From positions 1 to 32,620 of the forward strand of contig CANQGF010000010.1 in NCBI GenBank assembly GCA_947601485.1: a stretch of 32,620 nt of DNA. Direction: 5' to 3'. The translations under genes were made by a program, and so were the position numbers. This document shows, piece after piece, positions 9,509 through 29,593 of the stretch (position 1 is the first letter of the stretch; every line of letters begins with the position of its first letter). Under the pieces are notes generated by a model, which saw only the letters and a list, made by a program, of their open reading frames with translations, was not told the origin of the DNA and made no database searches. This stretch comes from an uncultured Bacilli bacterium. GTDB lineage: Bacteria > Bacillota_I > Bacilli_A > RF39 > UBA660.

Positions 9509-9541
9509 ATTTAGTAAACATCTTTTTATACATAAAAAAAA

Positions 9542-9612
9542 GCACACACAAATAGGGATCGATGTGGCTGCTGTCTTCCAACTCTGACCAGGTTACGATA
9601 TATTTGTTGTGC
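9542..9612 (-). ncRNA. ffs: Signal recognition particle RNA, short (4.5S-type)
   Basis: The minus strand carries the Ffh-binding domain: the apical core GGTCAG, a GGAA tetraloop, and CAGCAGCC pairing back. The ends pair with each other (GCACAACAAATA with TATTTGTGTGTGC), giving a single hairpin of about 71 nt without the Alu domain that Bacillus SRP RNA has. A run of eight Ts (9534-9541 on the opposite strand as As) follows as terminator. An extended -10 promoter lies just upstream. The RNA scaffolds Ffh for co-translational membrane targeting. Exact ends are estimated from the pairing. Confidence 0.9.
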
Positions 9613-9618
9613 AAATTG

Positions 9619-9659: not shown

Positions 9660-9707
9660 TATTATGTAAACCAATTATTTCCCGGGAAATAATTGGTTTA
9701 CATAATA
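9660..9707. promoter_or_regulatory. Noc-binding site in a 48-bp perfect palindrome (left copy)
   Basis: The core ATTTCCCGGGAAAT (9677-9690) equals the Bacillus Noc-binding sequence as I recall it. The symmetry extends without a mismatch to 24 bp on each side, with arms that include TGTAAACCAATT and AATTGGTTTACA. The same 48 bases recur at 10627-10674. The length of the arms goes far beyond what Noc needs, so they may form a cruciform or bind a second factor. No T-run follows on the SRP side, so it does not look like an ordinary terminator. Confidence 0.85.
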
Positions 9708-9754
9708 TTTTTACAAAATTTTAAAAATTCGCATTATTTTTGTGATTTTATATA

Positions 9755-9770
9755 TGTTTCACGTGAAACA
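9755..9770. promoter_or_regulatory. parS site 1
   Basis: A perfect ParB-binding palindrome TGTTTCACGTGAAACA. The dyad symmetry extends to 32 bp (9747-9778) through TA-rich flanks that are unlike those of the other copies. Confidence 0.95.
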
Positions 9771-9891
9771 TATATAAATAAATTAAAATGTTTTTAAATG
9801 ATATAAAAAAACAAATTTTACTTTTTTTAAAAAATAAATATAAATTAATTTTTCTAATAAGTTTATAAATTAACTGTTTTTGATCGTACAA

Positions 9892-9907
9892 TGTTTCACG
9901 TGAAACA
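9892..9907. promoter_or_regulatory. parS site 2
   Basis: A perfect TGTTTCACGTGAAACA, centred 137 bp from site 1. The symmetry extends to 26 bp (9887-9912), with TACAA and TTGTA flanks. Confidence 0.95.
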
Positions 9908-10027
9908 TTGTAGTAATTTTTTACTTAAATACAATTATAAAAGGCTCAAATATTTATTTATAATGATAATTTATAAGCCAAATTAAAATATAATTTTATA
10001 TAGATAAATAATTTGAAATTTATCTTA

Positions 10028-10043
10028 TGTTTCACGTGAAACA
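10028..10043. promoter_or_regulatory. parS site 3
   Basis: A perfect TGTTTCACGTGAAACA, centred 136 bp from site 2. The symmetry extends to 24 bp (10024-10047), with CTTA and TAAG flanks. Confidence 0.95.
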
Positions 10044-10329
10044 TAAGGCTTTATTATTTAAATTGATATACAATATTAAATTTAATTTAAAAAATTTAAA
10101 TCAGTAATTATAACTAGTTAATATCATTTAAAATAAATAGCTTTATTTGAAAAGATTTGATTTTTATATTTTCTACAAGGTCATAATATATTTGAAACTA
10201 TTAAATAATATGGCTTGTTTTTTTAATTAAGTAATTATTACTTAATTATATTATGTAAAATACTATTGAAAGAGTATGATCACATGTGAAAGCACAGGCC
10301 ATGCACCAAATTAATAATAATTAATATAA

Positions 10330-10345
10330 TGTTTCACGTGAAACA
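10330..10345. promoter_or_regulatory. parS site 4
   Basis: A perfect TGTTTCACGTGAAACA, centred 302 bp from site 3. It has the longest symmetric context: 42 bp (10317-10358) without a mismatch, 13 paired bases beyond the core on each side. Confidence 0.95.
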
Positions 10346-10522
10346 TTATATTAATTATAAAAGTTAATAAAAATGATACAAAAACAAATTATCAATTAAT
10401 TAGTATTTAAAAATATAAAGAAATAATAATAAATATACAGTTTATAATTAATAATTAATAATTTTAAAATAATAAATTTATACTAAATAAAATATAATAA
10501 TTGTAATTCTAAAGATAGAGAA

Positions 10523-10538
10523 TGTTTCACGTGAAACA
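10523..10538. promoter_or_regulatory. parS site 5
   Basis: A perfect TGTTTCACGTGAAACA, centred 193 bp from site 4. Only one further base on each side is symmetric (10522-10539). Confidence 0.95.
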
Positions 10539-10626
10539 TAGAAATTATAATTAATTAAAATATTAAATTATAGATATTTAATCAAAATATATAAAAATAC
10601 AACAAAATATTAAGATTTGGTAAATA

Positions 10627-10674
10627 TATTATGTAAACCAATTATTTCCCGGGAAATAATTGGTTTACATAATA
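10627..10674. promoter_or_regulatory. Noc-binding site in a 48-bp perfect palindrome (right copy)
   Basis: It is identical over 48 bp to the copy at 9660-9707, with core ATTTCCCGGGAAAT at 10644-10657. Here the symmetry runs two bases further on each side (10625-10676). It lies just beyond the gyrA terminator, at the other edge of the parS cluster. Confidence 0.85.
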
Positions 10675-10708
10675 TAAAAAGGCACTAACTTTTTAATTAT
10701 TAGTACCT
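10674..10708 (-). terminator. Rho-independent terminator of recF-gyrB-gyrA
   Basis: On the minus strand GGTACTAA and TTAGTGCC form an 8-bp stem (one U-G wobble) followed by TTTTTAT. The left arm includes the last codons and stop of gyrA, so the terminator overlaps the gene end. It keeps gyrase transcription from entering the parS interval. Confidence 0.75.
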
Positions 10709-13176
10709 TCGTTATTTTGATGATCTTCAACATTATTTTCATTTTCAGAAGAATCATCTATAATTTTTTTAACAGCGGAAACAGTTGCAACAAACTGATT
10801 TTCTCTTAATGAAATAAGTCTTAATCCTTGAGTAACACGTCCAAGTAAGCTAATTTGTTGAACAGGTAGTTTAATAGTTATACCGGCATTAGTCATAATA
10901 ATAACATCGTTATCTTCTTCAACTACTTTAGCTGCAACTAAATTACCATTCTTTTCAGTAACATTTAAAGCTAAAACACCTTTGCTTCCACGTTTTGTTT
11001 GTCTAAATTCACAAACATTTGTTCTTTTTCCGTAACCTTTTTGAGTTACAAGTAAGATTGTAGAATTTTCATCAACTACTTCAAAACAAATACATTTTCC
11101 ACCATCAAGATTAATACCTTTAACACCAGCAGCAGTACGGCCCATTGGTCTAATCTCATTTTCATTAAATTTAACCATTTTTCCATTATCACTACCAAGT
11201 AGTATAATGTTATCTCCATTGGTTTTCTTAACATCAATTAATTCATCATTTTCAGACAACGTAATGCATATTTTACCAGTAGCTCTTATATTATCAAATT
11301 CTGATATTTTTGTCTTTTTAACAATACCTTTTTTAGTGGCAAATACTAAATATTTATTATTTTCTTCTTTTTCTATTTTCAATATAGAATTAATTGTTTC
11401 ATCTTTTTCTATTTGTAATAGATTTATAATTGGTAAACCTTTTGATTGACGGCTAAATTCTGGTATTTCGTATCCTTTTAATCGATATGTTTTGCCTTTA
11501 TTACTAAAGAACATAATATAATCATGGGTAGATAAATTAATTAAATGTTCAACATAATCTTCATCATTTGTAGTTAATCCTTTAATTCCAACACCACCAC
11601 GATTTTGTACTTTAAATGTATCATTTGCTGTTCTTTTAATATATCCTTTATTAGTTAACACAATCATAGCGTCTTCTTCTGGAATCAATGATTCATCTTC
11701 AATATATTCAATCGCTGTCATATCAATTTTTGTACGACGATCATCAGCATATTTGTCTTTAATTTCTAATAATTCATTCTTAATTATTTCTAATATCTTT
11801 TCTCTAGATGCCAATATACTTCTTAATTCATCTATTTTAATTAATAAATCATGTAATTCTTCTTCGATTTTAGCTCTTTCTAGACCCGTTAAACGACGTA
11901 ATTTTAATTCAAGTATTGCGTCAGCTTGAACATCTGATAAGCCATATTTTGCTATTAAAGTTTCCTTAGCAATAACATCAGTTTCGGAATCTCTAATTAT
12001 TTTAATAAAATCATCAAGATTATCAAGAGCTATTTTATAACCTTCCAATATATGAATTCTTTTTTCAGCTTTATCTAGATCAAATTGAGTCCTTCTTATG
12101 ATAACTTCTTCTTGGAAATTGATATATTTACTTATTATATCTTTTAATCCTAAAGTACGAGGAACTTTATTATCAATCATTAAGAAAATAATACCATAAG
12201 TTGTTTGAAATTGTGTATGTTTAAATAAATTATTTAAAACCACTTGAGGATTAGCATCTTTCTTTAATGTAATGGTAATTTTTACTCCATCTTTTAAGTC
12301 TGTGTGATAATCAGCTATACCATCAATTATTTTATTATGAACAAGTTCAGCAACTTTATTTTTTAAATCTGATACATTAACGCCATAAGGCACTTCATCA
12401 ACAATAATATAATGCTTTCCATCTTTTTCTTCAATCGTTGCTTTACTACGTATAGTTATTGTTCCACGGCCCGTTTCATAGGCTTTTTTAATACCACTAT
12501 TACCTAAAATTATACCACCAGTTGGAAAATCTGGACCTTTAATATATTGCATTAATCCTAAAGTATCAATATCTGGATTATCAATATAAGCTACACAGCC
12601 ATCAATAACTTCTCCTAAATTATGAGGTGGAATATTAGTGGCCATACCAACAGCAATTCCCATTGTTCCATTAACTAAAATATTAGGAAATCTTGAAGGT
12701 AATACTTCTGGTTCTTTTTCTGATTCATCAAAATTAGGAACAAAATTAACCGTTTCTTTATTAATATCTCTTAATAATTCTAAAGATAATTTATCGAGTC
12801 TTGCTTCCGTATAACGGTAAGCTGCAGCACCAGCACCAGCAATATTACCAAAGTTACCATGTCCATCTACTAATGGATTACGATAACTAAAGTCTTGAGC
12901 CATTCTAACCATAGCTTCATAGATACTTGAATCACCATGAGGATGGTATTTACCCATAACTTCACCAACTATTTTAGCTGATTTTTTATGTGGTTTATCT
13001 GGAGTATAACCTGATTCATACATAGACCATAAAATACGACGATGAACTGGTTTTAAGCCATCTCTTAAATCAGGAACTGCTCTTGAAACAATAACACTAA
13101 CTGAATAATCAATAAATGACTTTTTTATTTCTGTTACAATATTATTTTCTTGCAATTTATCTTTTTCGTGATTCAT
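10693..13176 (-). CDS. gyrA: DNA gyrase subunit A
   Basis: GyrA cuts and rejoins DNA in the A2B2 gyrase that introduces negative supercoils. The 827-aa protein is of normal length. The breakage-reunion domain shows the quinolone-region [12 protein letters not shown] (Ser near 83, Glu near 87, the usual sensitive residues) and the active-site Tyr in [11 protein letters not shown] (near residue 121). The C-terminal beta-pinwheel carries a GyrA box that reads QNRGGVG rather than QRRGGxG, a small deviation in a motif needed for DNA wrapping. The tail is acidic and Asn-rich. The ATG follows AGGAGG; the gap to gyrB is 9 bp. Confidence 0.97.
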
Positions 13177-16270: not shown

Positions 16271-16299
16271 ATTATAACACAAATAAAGGATATTTTAAA
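16271..16299 (-). promoter_or_regulatory. Promoter of recF-gyrB-gyrA
   Basis: On the minus strand TTTAAA (16294-16299) and TATAAT (16271-16276) are 17 bases apart, with TG one base before the -10 box. The -35 overlaps the last codon and stop of the upstream comK-like gene. The leader (about 16230-16260) contains an imperfect inverted repeat (ATAGGTGT and ACACTAT) that could be an operator or hairpin; I cannot say which. Confidence 0.65.
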
Positions 16300-16750
16300 C
16301 AAAATTTGCAGTATTTAACCATTTTAAGTAGTTATTTAATTTAATAATATTAATTAACATTCTTTCAAAGGAATATTTTGATATATTCACATCAAAAACA
16401 TTATTATTTAAACATTTTATTCTTAAATGATTTTTTTCTACTTCCTCATAATCTATTATTTTATTGGCTACAATTAATAAACATTCTTTATCCCTCAAAG
16501 AATTTATTTGCATAAAAATGATATTTTCCGCTACTGAAATTATAATTGGTACTTTATATTGAATTTTTAAGATATTTTTAACACTTTCAATTCTACCAGA
16601 CAAAGTACTTCCATGAAATAAACAATTTGAAGCTAATATTCTTTTAATATTTTTGTTGATAACTATTGAGTTTTCAACATCGTAACAAACAGTTTTATTT
16701 TCTTTTTTAAGTAAAGCAATCGTACTATTTTTAATAATATAACTATTCAT
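16295..16750 (-). CDS. comK: ComK-family competence transcription factor
   Basis: In Bacillus ComK is the master activator of genetic competence and binds paired A/T-rich boxes in the minor groove. This 151-aa protein aligns by eye with Bacillus ComK along most of its length. Here CLFHGSTLSGR corresponds to CRFFGSSYAGR there, IQYKVPIIISVAENIIFMQI to ISHKPPIMVDPSNQIFLFPT, and ISKYSFERMLINI to ISYNSFENQVYRT (Bacillus sequence from memory). The N-terminus and the C-terminal regulatory tail are shorter. A terminator separates it from dnaN; it has its own promoter and a strong GGAGG site. In Bacillus this slot holds the S4-domain gene yaaA. Whether it controls DNA uptake here is inferred. Confidence 0.8.
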   Translation of the reverse strand: MNSYIIKNSTIALLKKENKTVCYDVENSIVINKNIKRILASNCLFHGSTLSGRIESVKNILKIQYKVPIIISVAENIIFMQINSLRDKECLLIVANKIIDYEEVEKNHLRIKCLNNNVFDVNISKYSFERMLINIIKLNNYLKWLNTANFV

Positions 16751-18133: not shown

Positions 18134-19489
18134 TTATAACTTTGATTTAATTTCTTTAATAGTATTTTCTAAAGTTTGATTATGTTGTAATTCTTCTTTA
18201 ATCTTATCACAACTAGCTACAACTGTTGAATGATCTCTTCCCCCAAATTCAAAACCAATTTTAACTAGATTTTCTTCGGTTTCACTTCGGCATAGATACA
18301 TGGCAATATGTCTTGGCCAAGCTATATTATTACTTCTTTTTTTACTTTTTAAATCATCAACTGTTATCTTATAAAAATCCGCAACTACTTTTTGAATATG
18401 CGATATAGTATTTTCTTGATAAATGTTGTTATCTATTGCATCTTTACAAGCTTCAATCGCAAAATTTAAATCGATTCTTTCTGGTGTATACAAAGCTGTA
18501 TAAACAAGTAATCTTGTAATAGTACCTTCAATATGTCTTACATCACTTGGACAACCATTTGCTATATATTCAATAACATCTTTATTAACTTTATCTTTAA
18601 TACTAGTATTAGCTAGTTTTTGTTTAATAATTTCACAACGAAGTTCAAAATCAGGTGGATGAATATCAACTGGAAGACCCCATTTAAAACGACTTCTTAA
18701 ACGTTCCTCAATCTTTTTTAAATCATCCGGAGATCGATCCGATGAGATAATAATTTGTTTATTAGCTTGATTTAAAGCTTCAAAAGTATGAAAGAACTCT
18801 TGTTGGGTCATCGCAGAATCAACAATAAATTGAATATCATCTATAATTAAAACATCAACATTACGATATTTATTTTTAAAGTTATTAGCGTCTTCAATAG
18901 AATCTTGATCTTTATCTTTTTTAAATAAATTAACATATTCTTCTCTAAAATCACTACTAGTTGTATATAAAACTCTTTTTTTAGAATGTTCCGTTATATA
19001 ATTACCAATAGCGTTCATTAAATGGGTTTTTCCAGTTCCACTTTTACCATAAATAAAGAGTGGATTACGTATTGTTCCCGGTGATTGGGCAACATTCATC
19101 GCTGAAATAAATGCTAGACGATTAGATTCCCCAACAACATAATTATCAAAATTAAGATTAGGTTTTAAATTAGTATTCCATACTATAATTTGATTTTCTT
19201 CATTATTACTTTTAGATGTTTCAATATTAGTTTTATCTTCTAATTCTTCCTCGGTATAAAATTTAAAATCATAATTAATACCAGTTAAGGAAAACATTGT
19301 ACTATCAATTAAATCTGAATAAGTATTTTTAAGTATTTGTTTATGAACAGGAAGAGGTACTTTAATAGTAATTTCTTTATCATCAATATTAACAAGTTCT
19401 AAATCATTAAACCAAGCTGTAAATGTTCCTGGACTAACTTCGCTTTCTATTTCTGATAAAAATTTCTTAAATAATTCTTGTGTTTTCAT
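18134..19489 (-). CDS. dnaA: Chromosomal replication initiator DnaA
   Basis: DnaA binds its boxes and melts the origin. The 451-aa protein has an N-terminal helicase-loading domain, a short variable linker (about residues 85-115), the AAA+ domain with Walker A GKSGTGKTH (about 150) and Walker B VLIIDDIQF (about 215), and the C-terminal box-binding domain with the signature FGGRDHSTVVASCDKI. A GAGGT site precedes the ATG. Divergent rpmH lies across the origin interval, as in most Bacillota. Confidence 0.98.
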   Translation of the reverse strand: MKTQELFKKFLSEIESEVSPGTFTAWFNDLELVNIDDKEITIKVPLPVHKQILKNTYSDLIDSTMFSLTGINYDFKFYTEEELEDKTNIETSKSNNEENQIIVWNTNLKPNLNFDNYVVGESNRLAFISAMNVAQSPGTIRNPLFIYGKSGTGKTHLMNAIGNYITEHSKKRVLYTTSSDFREEYVNLFKKDKDQDSIEDANNFKNKYRNVDVLIIDDIQFIVDSAMTQQEFFHTFEALNQANKQIIISSDRSPDDLKKIEERLRSRFKWGLPVDIHPPDFELRCEIIKQKLANTSIKDKVNKDVIEYIANGCPSDVRHIEGTITRLLVYTALYTPERIDLNFAIEACKDAIDNNIYQENTISHIQKVVADFYKITVDDLKSKKRSNNIAWPRHIAMYLCRSETEENLVKIGFEFGGRDHSTVVASCDKIKEELQHNQTLENTIKEIKSKL

Positions 19490-20345: not shown

Positions 20346-21389
20346 ATGAAAAAGAAATTATTAGTGTTATTTCTAGTAGTACTTTTAACTAGTGGTTGTG
20401 GTACTAGTGATTATATTAAGGATGAAGATAAAAAAGTTGTTCAATATACTGAAACAGGTCAAAATTTACCTAATAATATTTTATGTAAACCAGAAGTTGA
20501 TTCAGAATTGTATAAAGAATATGAAAAATATAATGATGAATTAAAAATACCACTTGAAGATTTACCACTTTGTAGTGAATTTAAATTAAATTCTAATAAG
20601 GCATCAGGATTATGGGAACTTATCTTTGTAAAACCTTTAGCTTATTTAATTTTAAAACTAGGAAATTTAATTGGCAATATGGGTATTTCTTTAATTTTAG
20701 TTGGTCTTGCTATAAGATTAATTTTACTTCCATCAGCTTATAAAACACAAAAACAAAGTAAAAATATGCAAAAGGTCCAACAAGATATGCAAAAAATTGA
20801 ACTTAAATATCGTGGTCGAGAAGATAAAGAATCAATGATGATGAAAAGTCAAGAAATGATGAATGTTTATAAAAAGAATAATGTTAAACCAATGTCTGGT
20901 TGTTTAGTATCATTCTTACAACTTCCTATATTCTTTGCTTTCTTACAAGCTATCAATCGTGTACCAGCCATTTTTGAAGATAAATTACTAGGTTTTAATT
21001 TAGGTATGACACCTTATGTAGGATTATCAAAAGGTAATTATTTATATATTTTATTAATAGTTTTAATTGCTTTATCAACTTATTTTTCATTTAAATATTC
21101 AATGCGTAGTGCTGGAGCAATTAATCAAACCAAAGAAATGCAAGATCAAATGGGAATGATGACAAAAATTATGACAGTTATGATTGTTATTACATCTTTC
21201 TCATTATCAACTGCATTAGCATTTTATTGGATTGTAACTTATGCATTTATAGCTATTCAAACTTATATTTTTAGAAGGTTATCTGGAGAAAATAAAAAGA
21301 AGGATAAAAAAGATAAGGATAATAAAAAAGATAAAATAAAAGATAAGTTAGAAATTAAAAGAGGTATGAAGTATGGAAATAATATCTAA
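20346..21389 (+). CDS. yidC: Membrane protein insertase YidC/SpoIIIJ/Oxa1 family
   Basis: YidC inserts membrane proteins, alone or with SecYEG. The 347-aa protein starts with a lipoprotein signal (LLTSGC, Cys near residue 18), then an extracellular stretch of about 70 residues with three more cysteines. Five membrane segments follow, with the groove arginine in GLAIRLILLPSAYKTQKQS (about residues 120-138) and a conserved cytoplasmic hairpin. The C-terminal tail is very Lys-rich, typical of ribosome contact. AAGGAG precedes the ATG and the gene overlaps jag by 17 bp. The four Cys in the outer part are slightly unusual. Confidence 0.95.
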   Translation: MKKKLLVLFLVVLLTSGCGTSDYIKDEDKKVVQYTETGQNLPNNILCKPEVDSELYKEYEKYNDELKIPLEDLPLCSEFKLNSNKASGLWELIFVKPLAYLILKLGNLIGNMGISLILVGLAIRLILLPSAYKTQKQSKNMQKVQQDMQKIELKYRGREDKESMMMKSQEMMNVYKKNNVKPMSGCLVSFLQLPIFFAFLQAINRVPAIFEDKLLGFNLGMTPYVGLSKGNYLYILLIVLIALSTYFSFKYSMRSAGAINQTKEMQDQMGMMTKIMTVMIVITSFSLSTALAFYWIVTYAFIAIQTYIFRRLSGENKKKDKKDKDNKKDKIKDKLEIKRGMKYGNNI

Positions 21390-26566: not shown

Positions 26567-26836
26567 ATGAATAACTATTATGAATTTAAATATAACGAAG
26601 ATAGAGAATCTTTTGAATATTTTAATTCTCTACCTATTAATGTTTTAAAAAATATTCTAAATGAAAATTTTAATTATATTGAAACTAGCTTAATTAATTA
26701 TGCTAATGTATTTAAAGAGATATTTGAAAGTAAAGATTATGATGAGTTTTATTATACTTGTTTATCATTAGTTGAAGAGTTAAATGATATTAAAATTATA
26801 ATTAATATTTTAAAGGATAGAGATAAAAATGAGTAA
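26567..26836 (+). CDS. Unknown 89-aa protein, partner of the IS30-like transposase
   Basis: I do not recognise this family. The acidic, Asn- and Tyr-rich protein appears all-helical (for example LPINVLKNILNENFNYIETS and a C-terminal LNDIKIIINILKDRD). There is no signal or membrane segment. GGAGG stands 10 bases before the ATG. Its last codons overlap the transposase start by 8 bp (ATGAGTAA), so the two are translated together. This suggests a transposition regulator or accessory protein, which is inferred from position only. Confidence 0.6.
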   Translation: MNNYYEFKYNEDRESFEYFNSLPINVLKNILNENFNYIETSLINYANVFKEIFESKDYDEFYYTCLSLVEELNDIKIIINILKDRDKNE

Positions 26837-27485
26837 AGGTCATTTATCTTATTCCGATAGATTAGCTATTGAAAATATGCTTAATGAAGGTCATAATGAT
26901 GCACCAGTCTTATTAACTTTGGAAATTGTTCCGATTAACTTTTTATTTATCTTTAAAATTGATAGTCAAACTAAAGATGAGGTTATTAAAAAAATAACTT
27001 ATTTTAAAGATTTAATTGGTAATGAAACCTTTGATAGACTCACGGAAATATTGTTAACGGATAATGGGAAAGAATTTTATATTGGTGAAGAAGCTTTAAC
27101 TCTTTCTTCTAATATTCATTTATTTTATTGTCATCCTTATTCTTCCTACGAAAAAGGTTCCATTGAAAATAATCATGAACTTATTAGAAGAATTATTCCT
27201 AAAGGTGTTTCTTTAAAGCCATATACGCAAAATGAACTTAATTTACTTTGTTCTCATATTAATAGTTTATTTAGAAAAAAATTAGATGGTAAATGTCCTT
27301 TTGATTTAATTGAACAATATATTCCTTTAGATAAAATTAAAAAATTATGTTTATCTAAAATTAATCCTTTAGATGTGTGTTTAATACCTGAATTACTTGG
27401 TGATAAAAACATCAATAATATTAAGAAATATTTAGATAAAAATGATATCAAAAAAGCTAACATTTCTTTTATTAAAAATGACTGA
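26829..27485 (+). pseudogene. IS30-family transposase with large internal in-frame deletion
   Basis: The 218-aa frame begins with the IS30-type helix-turn-helix start (GHLSYSDRLAIENMLNEG, residues 4-21) and jumps at about residue 23 into the catalytic domain (DAPVLLTLE). The second catalytic Asp is D78 in LLTDNGKEF and the Glu is E113 in EKGSIENNHELIRR, a spacing of 34 residues that fits IS30. The first catalytic Asp and the rest of the DNA-binding domain, about 120 residues by family length, are missing. It cannot be an active DDE enzyme but could still make a truncated protein. The frame ends with TGA just inside the right inverted repeat. Confidence 0.85.
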
Positions 27486-27735: not shown

Positions 27736-28440
27736 ATGGATAAAGCAAAAAGAATTAGTAACATGTTAGCACAAAGATTAACTTGGTATGCTGAAGCTAA
27801 TTGTGATATTACGCAGATTAAAGATCCGAATATAATGCGGAAGTTTGAAGAATTACAACGAAAAAATGAATTTATAATTTTTTCTTTTTTAAGTAAGATT
27901 TTTCTTGATGATACGGTAAAAGAAGGAATGATAAGTAGAGGCAACAGTGGTACTTATACATCATTGTTTAATTTTACGAAAGAGAAAGATATTGCTTTAG
28001 GATTTCATAGTTACGCAACATCATCATTAGTAATAGGGGCTGATATATGCGTCAAAAATGGTGATAGTTGGAATGATATTTTTGCTGTTGAAACTAAGCC
28101 AATAGACCCTAATGTACCAATGCTAAGATATGTAAAAAATCCTCCGATAAGTGAAGATATGACTTTAATGGATTGTTATGTTAAATTTTTAATTCCTTAT
28201 AAAGAAGGCTATTTATATTTTTCAAATGAGAACGATTTAAATACTGTTATAGCAACGTATATTGAAGACAAAGATTTAAAAGCTAGTTTAATGGAAGTGA
28301 AATTTTATATTAGAGATAATGGTATAGAAGGAAAATCTGTTGATTTAAACGATATGACAGTTGGTGAAATATTTAATTTATTATTATCTAAAAATTATGA
28401 AATTTTATATGATAAAGTAAATAATATGAGTTTAAAATAA
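27736..28440 (+). CDS. Unknown 234-aa cytoplasmic protein
   Basis: I do not recognise this protein. It is soluble by composition, with no signal or membrane segment. A helical N-terminal third (RISNMLAQRLTWYAEAN, then FEELQRKNEFIIFSFLSKIF) is followed by a region rich in beta-type segments and aromatic residues (ALGFHSYATSSLVIGADICV; FAVETKPIDPNVPML; CYVKFLIPYKEGYLYFSNEN) and a helical end. It has its own promoter, a GGAGGT site and a terminator, so it is a monocistronic unit. It stands between the IS remnant and noc, a slot that is empty in Bacillus, and may be acquired DNA. Confidence 0.75.
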   Translation: MDKAKRISNMLAQRLTWYAEANCDITQIKDPNIMRKFEELQRKNEFIIFSFLSKIFLDDTVKEGMISRGNSGTYTSLFNFTKEKDIALGFHSYATSSLVIGADICVKNGDSWNDIFAVETKPIDPNVPMLRYVKNPPISEDMTLMDCYVKFLIPYKEGYLYFSNENDLNTVIATYIEDKDLKASLMEVKFYIRDNGIEGKSVDLNDMTVGEIFNLLLSKNYEILYDKVNNMSLK

Positions 28441-28498: not shown

Positions 28499-28537
28499 TA
28501 ATAGGTAAGAATAAAAGTAGTGAAGGGGTCTGATTTT

Positions 28538-29593
28538 GTGAATCCAAGAATGGAAACTACCGGACAAGTTTTAAATATACCGATTGAAGACATTATTCCT
28601 AACCGTTTTCAACCAAGACTTTCATTTGATGAAGAAGGATTAAAGGAACTTGCATCTTCAATTAAAGAACATGGGATTATTCAACCCCTAGTTTTAAGAC
28701 GCCTTAATGATAAATATGAAATAATTGCTGGTGAAAGACGTTATAAAGCCGCTAAAATGGCAGGTCTTGCAAGTGTACCTGGTATTATTGCTGAAATGGA
28801 TGATAAAAGAAGTGCTGAAGTAGCTATTGTTGAAAATGTTCAAAGAAGAGATTTAACTTCTATTGAAGAAGCTAAATCTTATAAAGCTTTACTTGATAAA
28901 GGTTATTTAACCCAAGAAGAACTTGCTAAAAAGATGGGATTAAGTCAATCTGCTGTAGCTAATAAATTACGTTTATTATCATTAGCACCTGCAGTGCAAG
29001 ATGCTTTAATGGAAGGAAAAATATCTGAAAGGCATGCAAGAAGTCTTCTTACCCTAGATGATTTAACTAGCCAAGAAAAATGGCTTGATGTAATTCTTAA
29101 TGAAAGACTTACGGTTAAAGAACTTGATCGAAGATTAAGTAAGGAAAAAGCAAGTATGAAAGAAAATGATAGTAATAATGATATTCCAAAGATCAATTTA
29201 GATAATGAACTTAAAATATCTAATGAAGAGAATGATGAACAAATTTATGATGATGACAATAATAAAATTTCCTTCTTCGATTATATTACTAAACAATTAA
29301 ATGCTACAATGAATAATATTAATGATGATGAAGATAATAATATTATTGGTTCAAATCCGATAAAAGAAGATACAAATCCTTTTAATAATGCTTTAGAAAA
29401 TGCTGTAGATTCTTCCGATATTGAATTATTAGATTTTGAAATGCCAAGCAAAGAAACTAAAGATATGAATAAAGTTAATACTTTAATAGATGAATTAGTT
29501 AATAATTTAAAGAATGATAATTATACAGTCATTATGAATAAAGATGATAATGATAATACAGTGAAGTTTGAAATAACTGTTAATAAAGGTTAA
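28538..29593 (+). CDS. noc: ParB-family nucleoid occlusion protein Noc-like
   Basis: Noc is a CTP-dependent DNA clamp that keeps the division ring off the nucleoid. This 351-aa protein has the ParB CTP-binding motifs (GERRYKAAKMAG, about residues 67-78; ENVQRRDLTSIEEA, about 102-115) and the helix-turn-helix SQSAVANKLRLL. At the four positions that separate Noc from ParB (recalled Noc set Q, K, K, R) it reads Q, K, S, R. About 100 acidic, Asn-rich residues link the DNA-binding region to the C-terminal dimer domain, longer than in Bacillus. The GTG at 28538 has AGGGG 9 bases upstream; the GTG at 28520 has none. Neither start gives the N-terminal amphipathic membrane helix of Bacillus Noc. It could instead be the organism's only ParB. 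Confidence 0.85.
   Translation: MNPRMETTGQVLNIPIEDIIPNRFQPRLSFDEEGLKELASSIKEHGIIQPLVLRRLNDKYEIIAGERRYKAAKMAGLASVPGIIAEMDDKRSAEVAIVENVQRRDLTSIEEAKSYKALLDKGYLTQEELAKKMGLSQSAVANKLRLLSLAPAVQDALMEGKISERHARSLLTLDDLTSQEKWLDVILNERLTVKELDRRLSKEKASMKENDSNNDIPKINLDNELKISNEENDEQIYDDDNNKISFFDYITKQLNATMNNINDDEDNNIIGSNPIKEDTNPFNNALENAVDSSDIELLDFEMPSKETKDMNKVNTLIDELVNNLKNDNYTVIMNKDDNDNTVKFEITVNKG

Follow-up and report, generated by a model that had tools for sequence, protein, structure and literature searches.

In Bacillus subtilis, SMC is loaded by ParB at parS, at the origin. The parS-ParB(Spo0J)-SMC system of B. subtilis and Staphylococcus aureus resembles the locus described here in its exact 16-bp parS near dnaA-gyrA and in its genes for ParA and ParB; B. 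subtilis, however, has eight parS scattered over many kb (PMC8357415), whereas here five lie within 0.8 kb, in one intergenic gap, with flanks extended as palindromes, unlike those of the parS system in either species. The Noc system of the same two species has the motif ATTTCCCGGGAAAT of its Noc-binding site (NBS) in common with the present locus, where noc lies near rsmG and encodes Q/K/R at three of the four specificity positions; S. aureus carries 41 Noc loci (PMC5540599), against two exact NBS here rather than tens over the origin side, and the present Noc is without the N-terminal membrane helix of B. subtilis and S. aureus Noc. Near the terminus of B. subtilis, XerD unloads SMC (Karaboja et al. 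2021, as cited in PMC8357415, PMC8242196, and PMC10945525). As far as the citing passages describe them, the XerD-specific unloading sites of the terminus are like the half-sites reported below in having an XerD arm without an XerC arm, and the latter would, if bound, act on the same SMC; the half-sites reported here differ in lying at the origin-near loading site and in being joined to NBS at a fixed spacing. Finally, perfect stems of any sequence are known to arise and to be repaired by template switching, which brings compensatory changes of several bases (PMC8794818); the stems found here are of the same kind, but belong to a protein-binding palindrome and not to an RNA gene, and the process is deduced from their pattern.

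Our joint reading of the locus, to which we give a probability of roughly 0.55, is a parS centromere with flanks shaped by template switching, bracketed by Noc sites and XerD half-sites that would be bound side by side.

The parS array and the symmetry of its flanks

The window (the whole stretch of DNA analysed, 32,620 nucleotides) contains five exact copies of TGTTTCACGTGAAACA, starting at 9755, 9892, 10028, 10330, and 10523, where 0.16 are expected at up to three mismatches; they match the 16-bp TGTTNCACGTGAAACA by which an origin-near parS is recognised. The array is located in the gap between the gene for the small SRP RNA (9536-9616, minus strand; RF00169, 50.7 bits) on the left and gyrA (10693-13176, minus strand), whose 3' end faces the array, on the right. 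The same gene cluster also holds dnaN and dnaA, the latter (18134-19489, minus strand) putting about 8-9 kb between the array and the beginning of the oriC gene cluster. With two mismatches tolerated, the 1.37-Mb assembly still yielded no other parS; genes for ParA and ParB are adjacent on a separate contig (C11), and the best match of this ParB is Spo0J (6sdk). By its sequence, the array is the origin-proximal centromere of this gut bacterium, with five parS predicted to be bound by ParB.

Each parS (none assigned to a strand) is the centre of a perfect palindrome: site 1 (9755-9770) of one of 32 bp at 9747-9778, site 2 (9892-9907) of 26 bp at 9887-9912, site 3 (10028-10043) of 24 bp at 10024-10047, site 4 (10330-10345) of 42 bp at 10317-10358, and site 5 (10523-10538) of 18 bp at 10522-10539. 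All five lengths and positions had been given in the first-pass annotation and were recovered. It had also held that the flanking bases differ in every copy, which is correct beyond the first pair only: this A-T pair outside the 16-mer, the ninth of the palindrome, is invariant in all five sites and in 97 of 98 sites of the genus, so that the conserved core of parS is 18 bp. Site 5 has zero extension past it. Zero-spacer palindromes with arms of at least 9 number exactly seven in the whole window, namely the five parS and two NBS brackets; a window-wide excess of palindromes was rejected, as these seven are the only ones.

Whether such symmetry could be chance in AT-rich DNA is a fair question in a region of 85% A+T, where any pair matches at p of about 0.37. 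Random left and right flanks, drawn from the same intergenic DNA and paired (200,000 draws), gave a mean of 0.64 extra pairs, with at least eight in 0.07% of draws (P = 0.0007) and at least 13 in none (P < 5e-6), which bears out the earlier judgement that the 13 extra pairs of site 4 are hard to obtain by chance. The summed extension over the five parS is 31 pairs, a total never attained under this composition-true null; when site 4 and the fixed first pair are both left out, the null probability is still 0.0004. Relatives likewise have symmetric flanks. Over 100 parS sites from 34 congeneric genomes the mean perfect extension is 4.20 pairs, against 2.02 after permutation of right flanks among sites, which preserves every positional base preference (p = 0.0002, the minimum attainable with 5000 shuffles). 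The extension is 3.69 vs 1.58 in a set of 32 flank clusters, very conservative because single-linkage clustering joins too many flanks when the DNA is AT-rich; 4.29 vs 2.62 under permutation within genomes with gyrA-proximal sites excluded; and 3.49 vs 1.65 in other genera of the same family. Chance is thereby rejected, by the window null and by the genus permutations alike, and we find it scarcely credible as the origin of the symmetry. In other Bacilli families, non-coding parS have an extension of 2.95 vs 0.98 (n = 19), whereas coding parS, at 1.36 vs 0.99 (n = 14), have no symmetry effect. Retention of symmetry without conservation of sequence, as first described for the five sites, is thus real and general.

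Causes of the flank symmetry

The excess of symmetry sits in the first 6-7 pairs beyond the 16-mer, with background levels from the ninth onward. Neighbouring pairs within a site are correlated (phi 0.33-0.48), runs being either present or absent: 23 sites of the genus have at least seven pairs, against 4.4 under independent positions, and after the first mismatch pairing drops to background (0.31). The identity of the pair is free, A-U and U-A flips being about equal. Symmetry without sequence around protein-binding palindromes is usually taken as extra protein contacts, and symmetric ParB contacts beyond the known site had indeed been proposed at first pass. If ParB or another dimer contacted symmetric bases well outside the 16-bp parS, symmetry would be selected for binding; pairs 1-3 do have preferences in the genus (A-T in 99%; A-T in 75%; then C-G or T-A), from which the recognised site may be about 18-22 bp. 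Past pair 3, however, there is little preference beyond composition, yet left and right of each site agree. Contacts would constrain each half separately, and the halves need not match; a contact preference would moreover yield a consensus, and one is present at pairs 1-3 alone. With pair identity free, runs correlated and ending abruptly, and coding parS without symmetry, this part of the first-pass annotation was not supported, and wider contacts appear to us very improbable.

Hairpin selection, the other cause put forward at first pass, holds that the parS palindromes double as intrinsic terminators or cruciforms, pairing being kept while the sequence drifts. A sister clade shows such selection at least once, at its gyrA-proximal site. 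There, 24-40 bp separate an NBS from the parS closest to gyrA, a site that retains 5-8 extra pairs in nearly all genomes as its sequence changes (paired flank variants CAA/TTG, TAA/TTA, GCAA/TTGC, and others). The compensatory paired changes at orthologous sites that had been named as a check are present: in ten sister-clade sites both sides changed in 19 cells, vs 9.3 shuffled (0/500), and offsetting the partner by 1-3 columns abolishes the pairing. An A-rich tail, which corresponds to a U-tract in the gyrA transcript, accompanies 8/12 of these sites vs 0/13 other sites. Because it combines a compensated stem with a U-tract in the gyrA transcript, the sister-clade parS probably doubles as the gyrA terminator, and its stem, just past gyrA, would be retained for its usefulness in ending transcription. 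The window also has terminator-like patterns, at both NBS palindromes, parS 2, and parS 3 (6 vs 0.0 in shuffles), with weak tails, and the 52-bp NBS palindrome, 16 bp past gyrA, could act as a terminator. For the window's own parS the claim was not supported; site 4, the longest parS palindrome, is without a U-tract, and site 5, the gyrA-proximal one, is the least symmetric of the five. Nor does the wider pattern favour it, the effect being nearly as strong away from gyrA (3.91 vs 2.01) and the stems in the genus parS flanks, unlike RNA-selected ones, being neither enriched in GC (0.16 vs 0.21) nor over-represented in wobble pairs or mismatches. The U-tract was rejected as a general cause, as it is confined to the sister-clade gyrA-proximal site. 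As an explanation of the parS palindromes at large, hairpin selection seems to us rather unlikely, although clearly less so than wider contacts.

Template-switch homogenisation, absent from the first-pass annotation, fits the general pattern at least as well as hairpin selection and is, to judge from that pattern, the likeliest general cause: mirror runs that are contiguous, free in sequence, and abruptly ending fit template switching at hairpins. The strong palindrome of 16-18 bp would nucleate hairpins in replicating DNA, and template switching would copy one parS flank onto the other, leaving perfect runs with abrupt ends in any sequence. NBS palindromes without an XerD arm are likewise symmetric. 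Against it, some parS sites in sister species remain asymmetric, and the mutational process, if real, must therefore be slow. The outcome expected of template switching is much like that expected of hairpin selection. More than 150 sites form a natural series in which contact, terminator, and mutational causes can be told apart, and the series speaks for the last two.

Noc sites and XerD half-sites bracketing the array

Two further perfect palindromes, omitted at first pass, flank the array, at 9660-9707 (48 bp) and at 10625-10676 (52 bp). They have 49 identical bases in common, and the centre of each is an NBS, with the 16-mer TATTTCCCGGGAAATA at 9676-9691 in the left bracket and its counterpart at 10643-10658 in the right one, on the gyrA side (no strand assigned to either). 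The exact NBS 14-mer ATTTCCCGGGAAAT occurs twice in the assembly, both copies bracketing parS, and contig C9 has one copy with a single mismatch; in the genus it is present in 35/38 genomes. The spread of many NBS over the origin-proximal chromosome was thus not found, the two exact sites of the assembly both being at the array. Many congeners have an extra NBS about 6.2 kb from the array, approximately corresponding to the gap at 16295-16750, where the window has a gene for a ComK-family protein in an unusual location, between recF and dnaN.

The presumed reader of both NBS is the ParB-family nucleoid occlusion protein Noc, encoded at 28520-29593 (plus strand), whose best PDB matches are the Noc structures 7ng0, 7nfu, and 7ol9; it scores 272 bits with the NCBIfam noc model, under the cut-off of 315. 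Specificity for NBS is set by Q173, K179/K184, and R201, one lysine, 179 or 184, being reported as sufficient (PMC7383237); the specificity residues here are Q, K, S, and R, with Q/K/R at positions 173, 179, and 201. An N-terminal amphipathic membrane-targeting helix was not found in this protein, which starts MKGSDFVNPRMETTGQVLNIPIEDI and leaves no room for an extension, so that membrane tethering by Noc is doubtful. Ahead of its C-terminal end, Noc contains a long insert (roughly 100 residues) that is acidic and of low complexity. Directly before noc lies an ORF of 234 aa (27736-28440) without a Pfam or NCBIfam match, and the stretch 26567-27485, between rsmG and noc, resembles a broken IS30 copy (an ORF of 89 aa, then one of 218 aa that matches the C-terminal part of IS30-family transposase; 73 bits, cut-off 80).

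Each NBS has TTATGTAAACCAA on both sides, a sequence identical to the XerD arm in the dif of this genome. The putative XerD half-site TTATGTAAACC abuts the left NBS at 9662-9672 (plus strand), with a mirror copy at 9695-9705 (minus strand); in the right bracket the half-site abuts the NBS at 10629-10639 (plus strand), with a mirror copy at 10662-10672 (minus strand), all four having XerD-arm identity. The assembly contains TTATGTAAACCAA at dif (contig C2, position 13742) and in the four array copies, with no others, and likewise five copies of TTATGTNAACCAA, which are dif and the four bracket arms. For comparison, dif ends in TTATGTAAACT in B. subtilis and in TTATGTTAAAT in Escherichia coli, which in each case is the arm for XerD (PMC3025954). 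Nearly all genomes of the genus have one dif-like site each, with the arm TTATGT[A/T]AACC followed by AA, and dif with this arm was found in 27 loci of the genus. In the present genome (L104, stretch G000:C2:13742-15440), dif is about 1.2 kb from a gene for an XerD-like protein (TIGR02225, 320.3 bits, just under the equivalog cut-off of 329.6), and an XerC-like gene on contig C3 is also just below its NCBIfam equivalog cut-off (313.3 vs 335.15). In another genome a lone XerD half-site lies 5.6 kb from dif (G026:C8:37540, L146), which recalls the XerD-specific sites near the terminus. Four genomes have additional XerD half-sites at a distance of about 10 kb; these resembled an oriC element but were rejected as chance occurrences, because the sequence around them forms a single conserved coding frame; the window has a near-copy at 20481, inside the ORF 20346-21389.

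Across 38 genomes of the genus, the 86 copies of TTATGTNAACCAA divide into 35 at dif, 42 at parS/NBS arrays, and 9 elsewhere, of which some fall within a conserved coding frame. At the array loci, 49/51 occurrences of TTATGTNAAC are at exactly 15 nt from the NBS, a spacing at which the XerD arm is separated from the NBS 16-mer by three bases. Element maps include one-sided and two-sided versions of the arm, and 31/33 of the one-sided arms point to gyrA/oriC in a manual count from the maps, in which sites of related genomes are not independent. The exact arm beside an NBS is present in 6/6 genomes of the window's clade and absent from about half of the genus, and its presence on a tree of gyrA fragments requires seven changes; the arm is therefore dispensable. 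An exact-match scan of 84,980 species genomes, a set from which near-identical records may be absent, recovered the exact composite on 16 contigs, all from uncultured Bacilli/Erysipelotrichaceae/'Mycoplasma' MAGs, mostly gut-derived.

We infer that XerD binds the half-sites of the brackets, although another protein could read them. Were the arm part of an extended NBS read by Noc itself, or the site of an unrelated regulator, its constant distance from the NBS (49/51) would be as expected of a bipartite operator. Against such a reader, the identity with dif of the same genome extends over 13 nt, taking in the XerD arm and two bases after it, and arm position 7 varies in the array copies as it does in dif. 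In an arm-bearing genome, moreover, an NBS outside the parS array (G025, L153) is without the arm, which is thus not part of the general Noc site and seems tied to the parS array. We consider a reader other than XerD improbable.

Proposed function and meaning

The sequence itself establishes that the palindromes exist and are symmetric in excess, that the bracket arms are identical with the XerD arm, that their spacing from the NBS is fixed, and that the arm is nearly confined to dif and the arrays. With regard to function, Noc and XerD would bind the brackets side by side, and a half-site without an XerC arm would most simply keep XerD at the edge of the array, where it could restrict or time the departure of SMC, or would couple XerD to Noc. 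Since ParB loads SMC at parS and XerD unloads it at terminus sites in B. subtilis, the most likely role of the brackets would be either to restrict or time how SMC leaves the loading zone, or to anchor XerD and Noc near the origin. Tentatively, and at somewhat less than even odds, we picture an SMC loading zone fenced by Noc-XerD composites with fixed spacing and mostly one polarity, in which XerD, both dimer resolvase and SMC unloader of the terminus side, would stand next to Noc, so that the origin would link loading and unloading with division control.

We know of no Noc-XerD composite described at a parS array, and a literature search found no paper linking XerD to Noc sites. The brackets are a more interesting find than the flanks, their parts being known and their arrangement not known as described. 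They also make up a compact native module, in which ParB, Noc, and XerD can be studied on one 1-kb DNA. That exact XerD half-sites are tied to Noc sites within the loading array suggests that the origin, too, can be a place of regulated SMC release, and hints that the machineries for the start and the end of chromosome organisation may meet at one locus.
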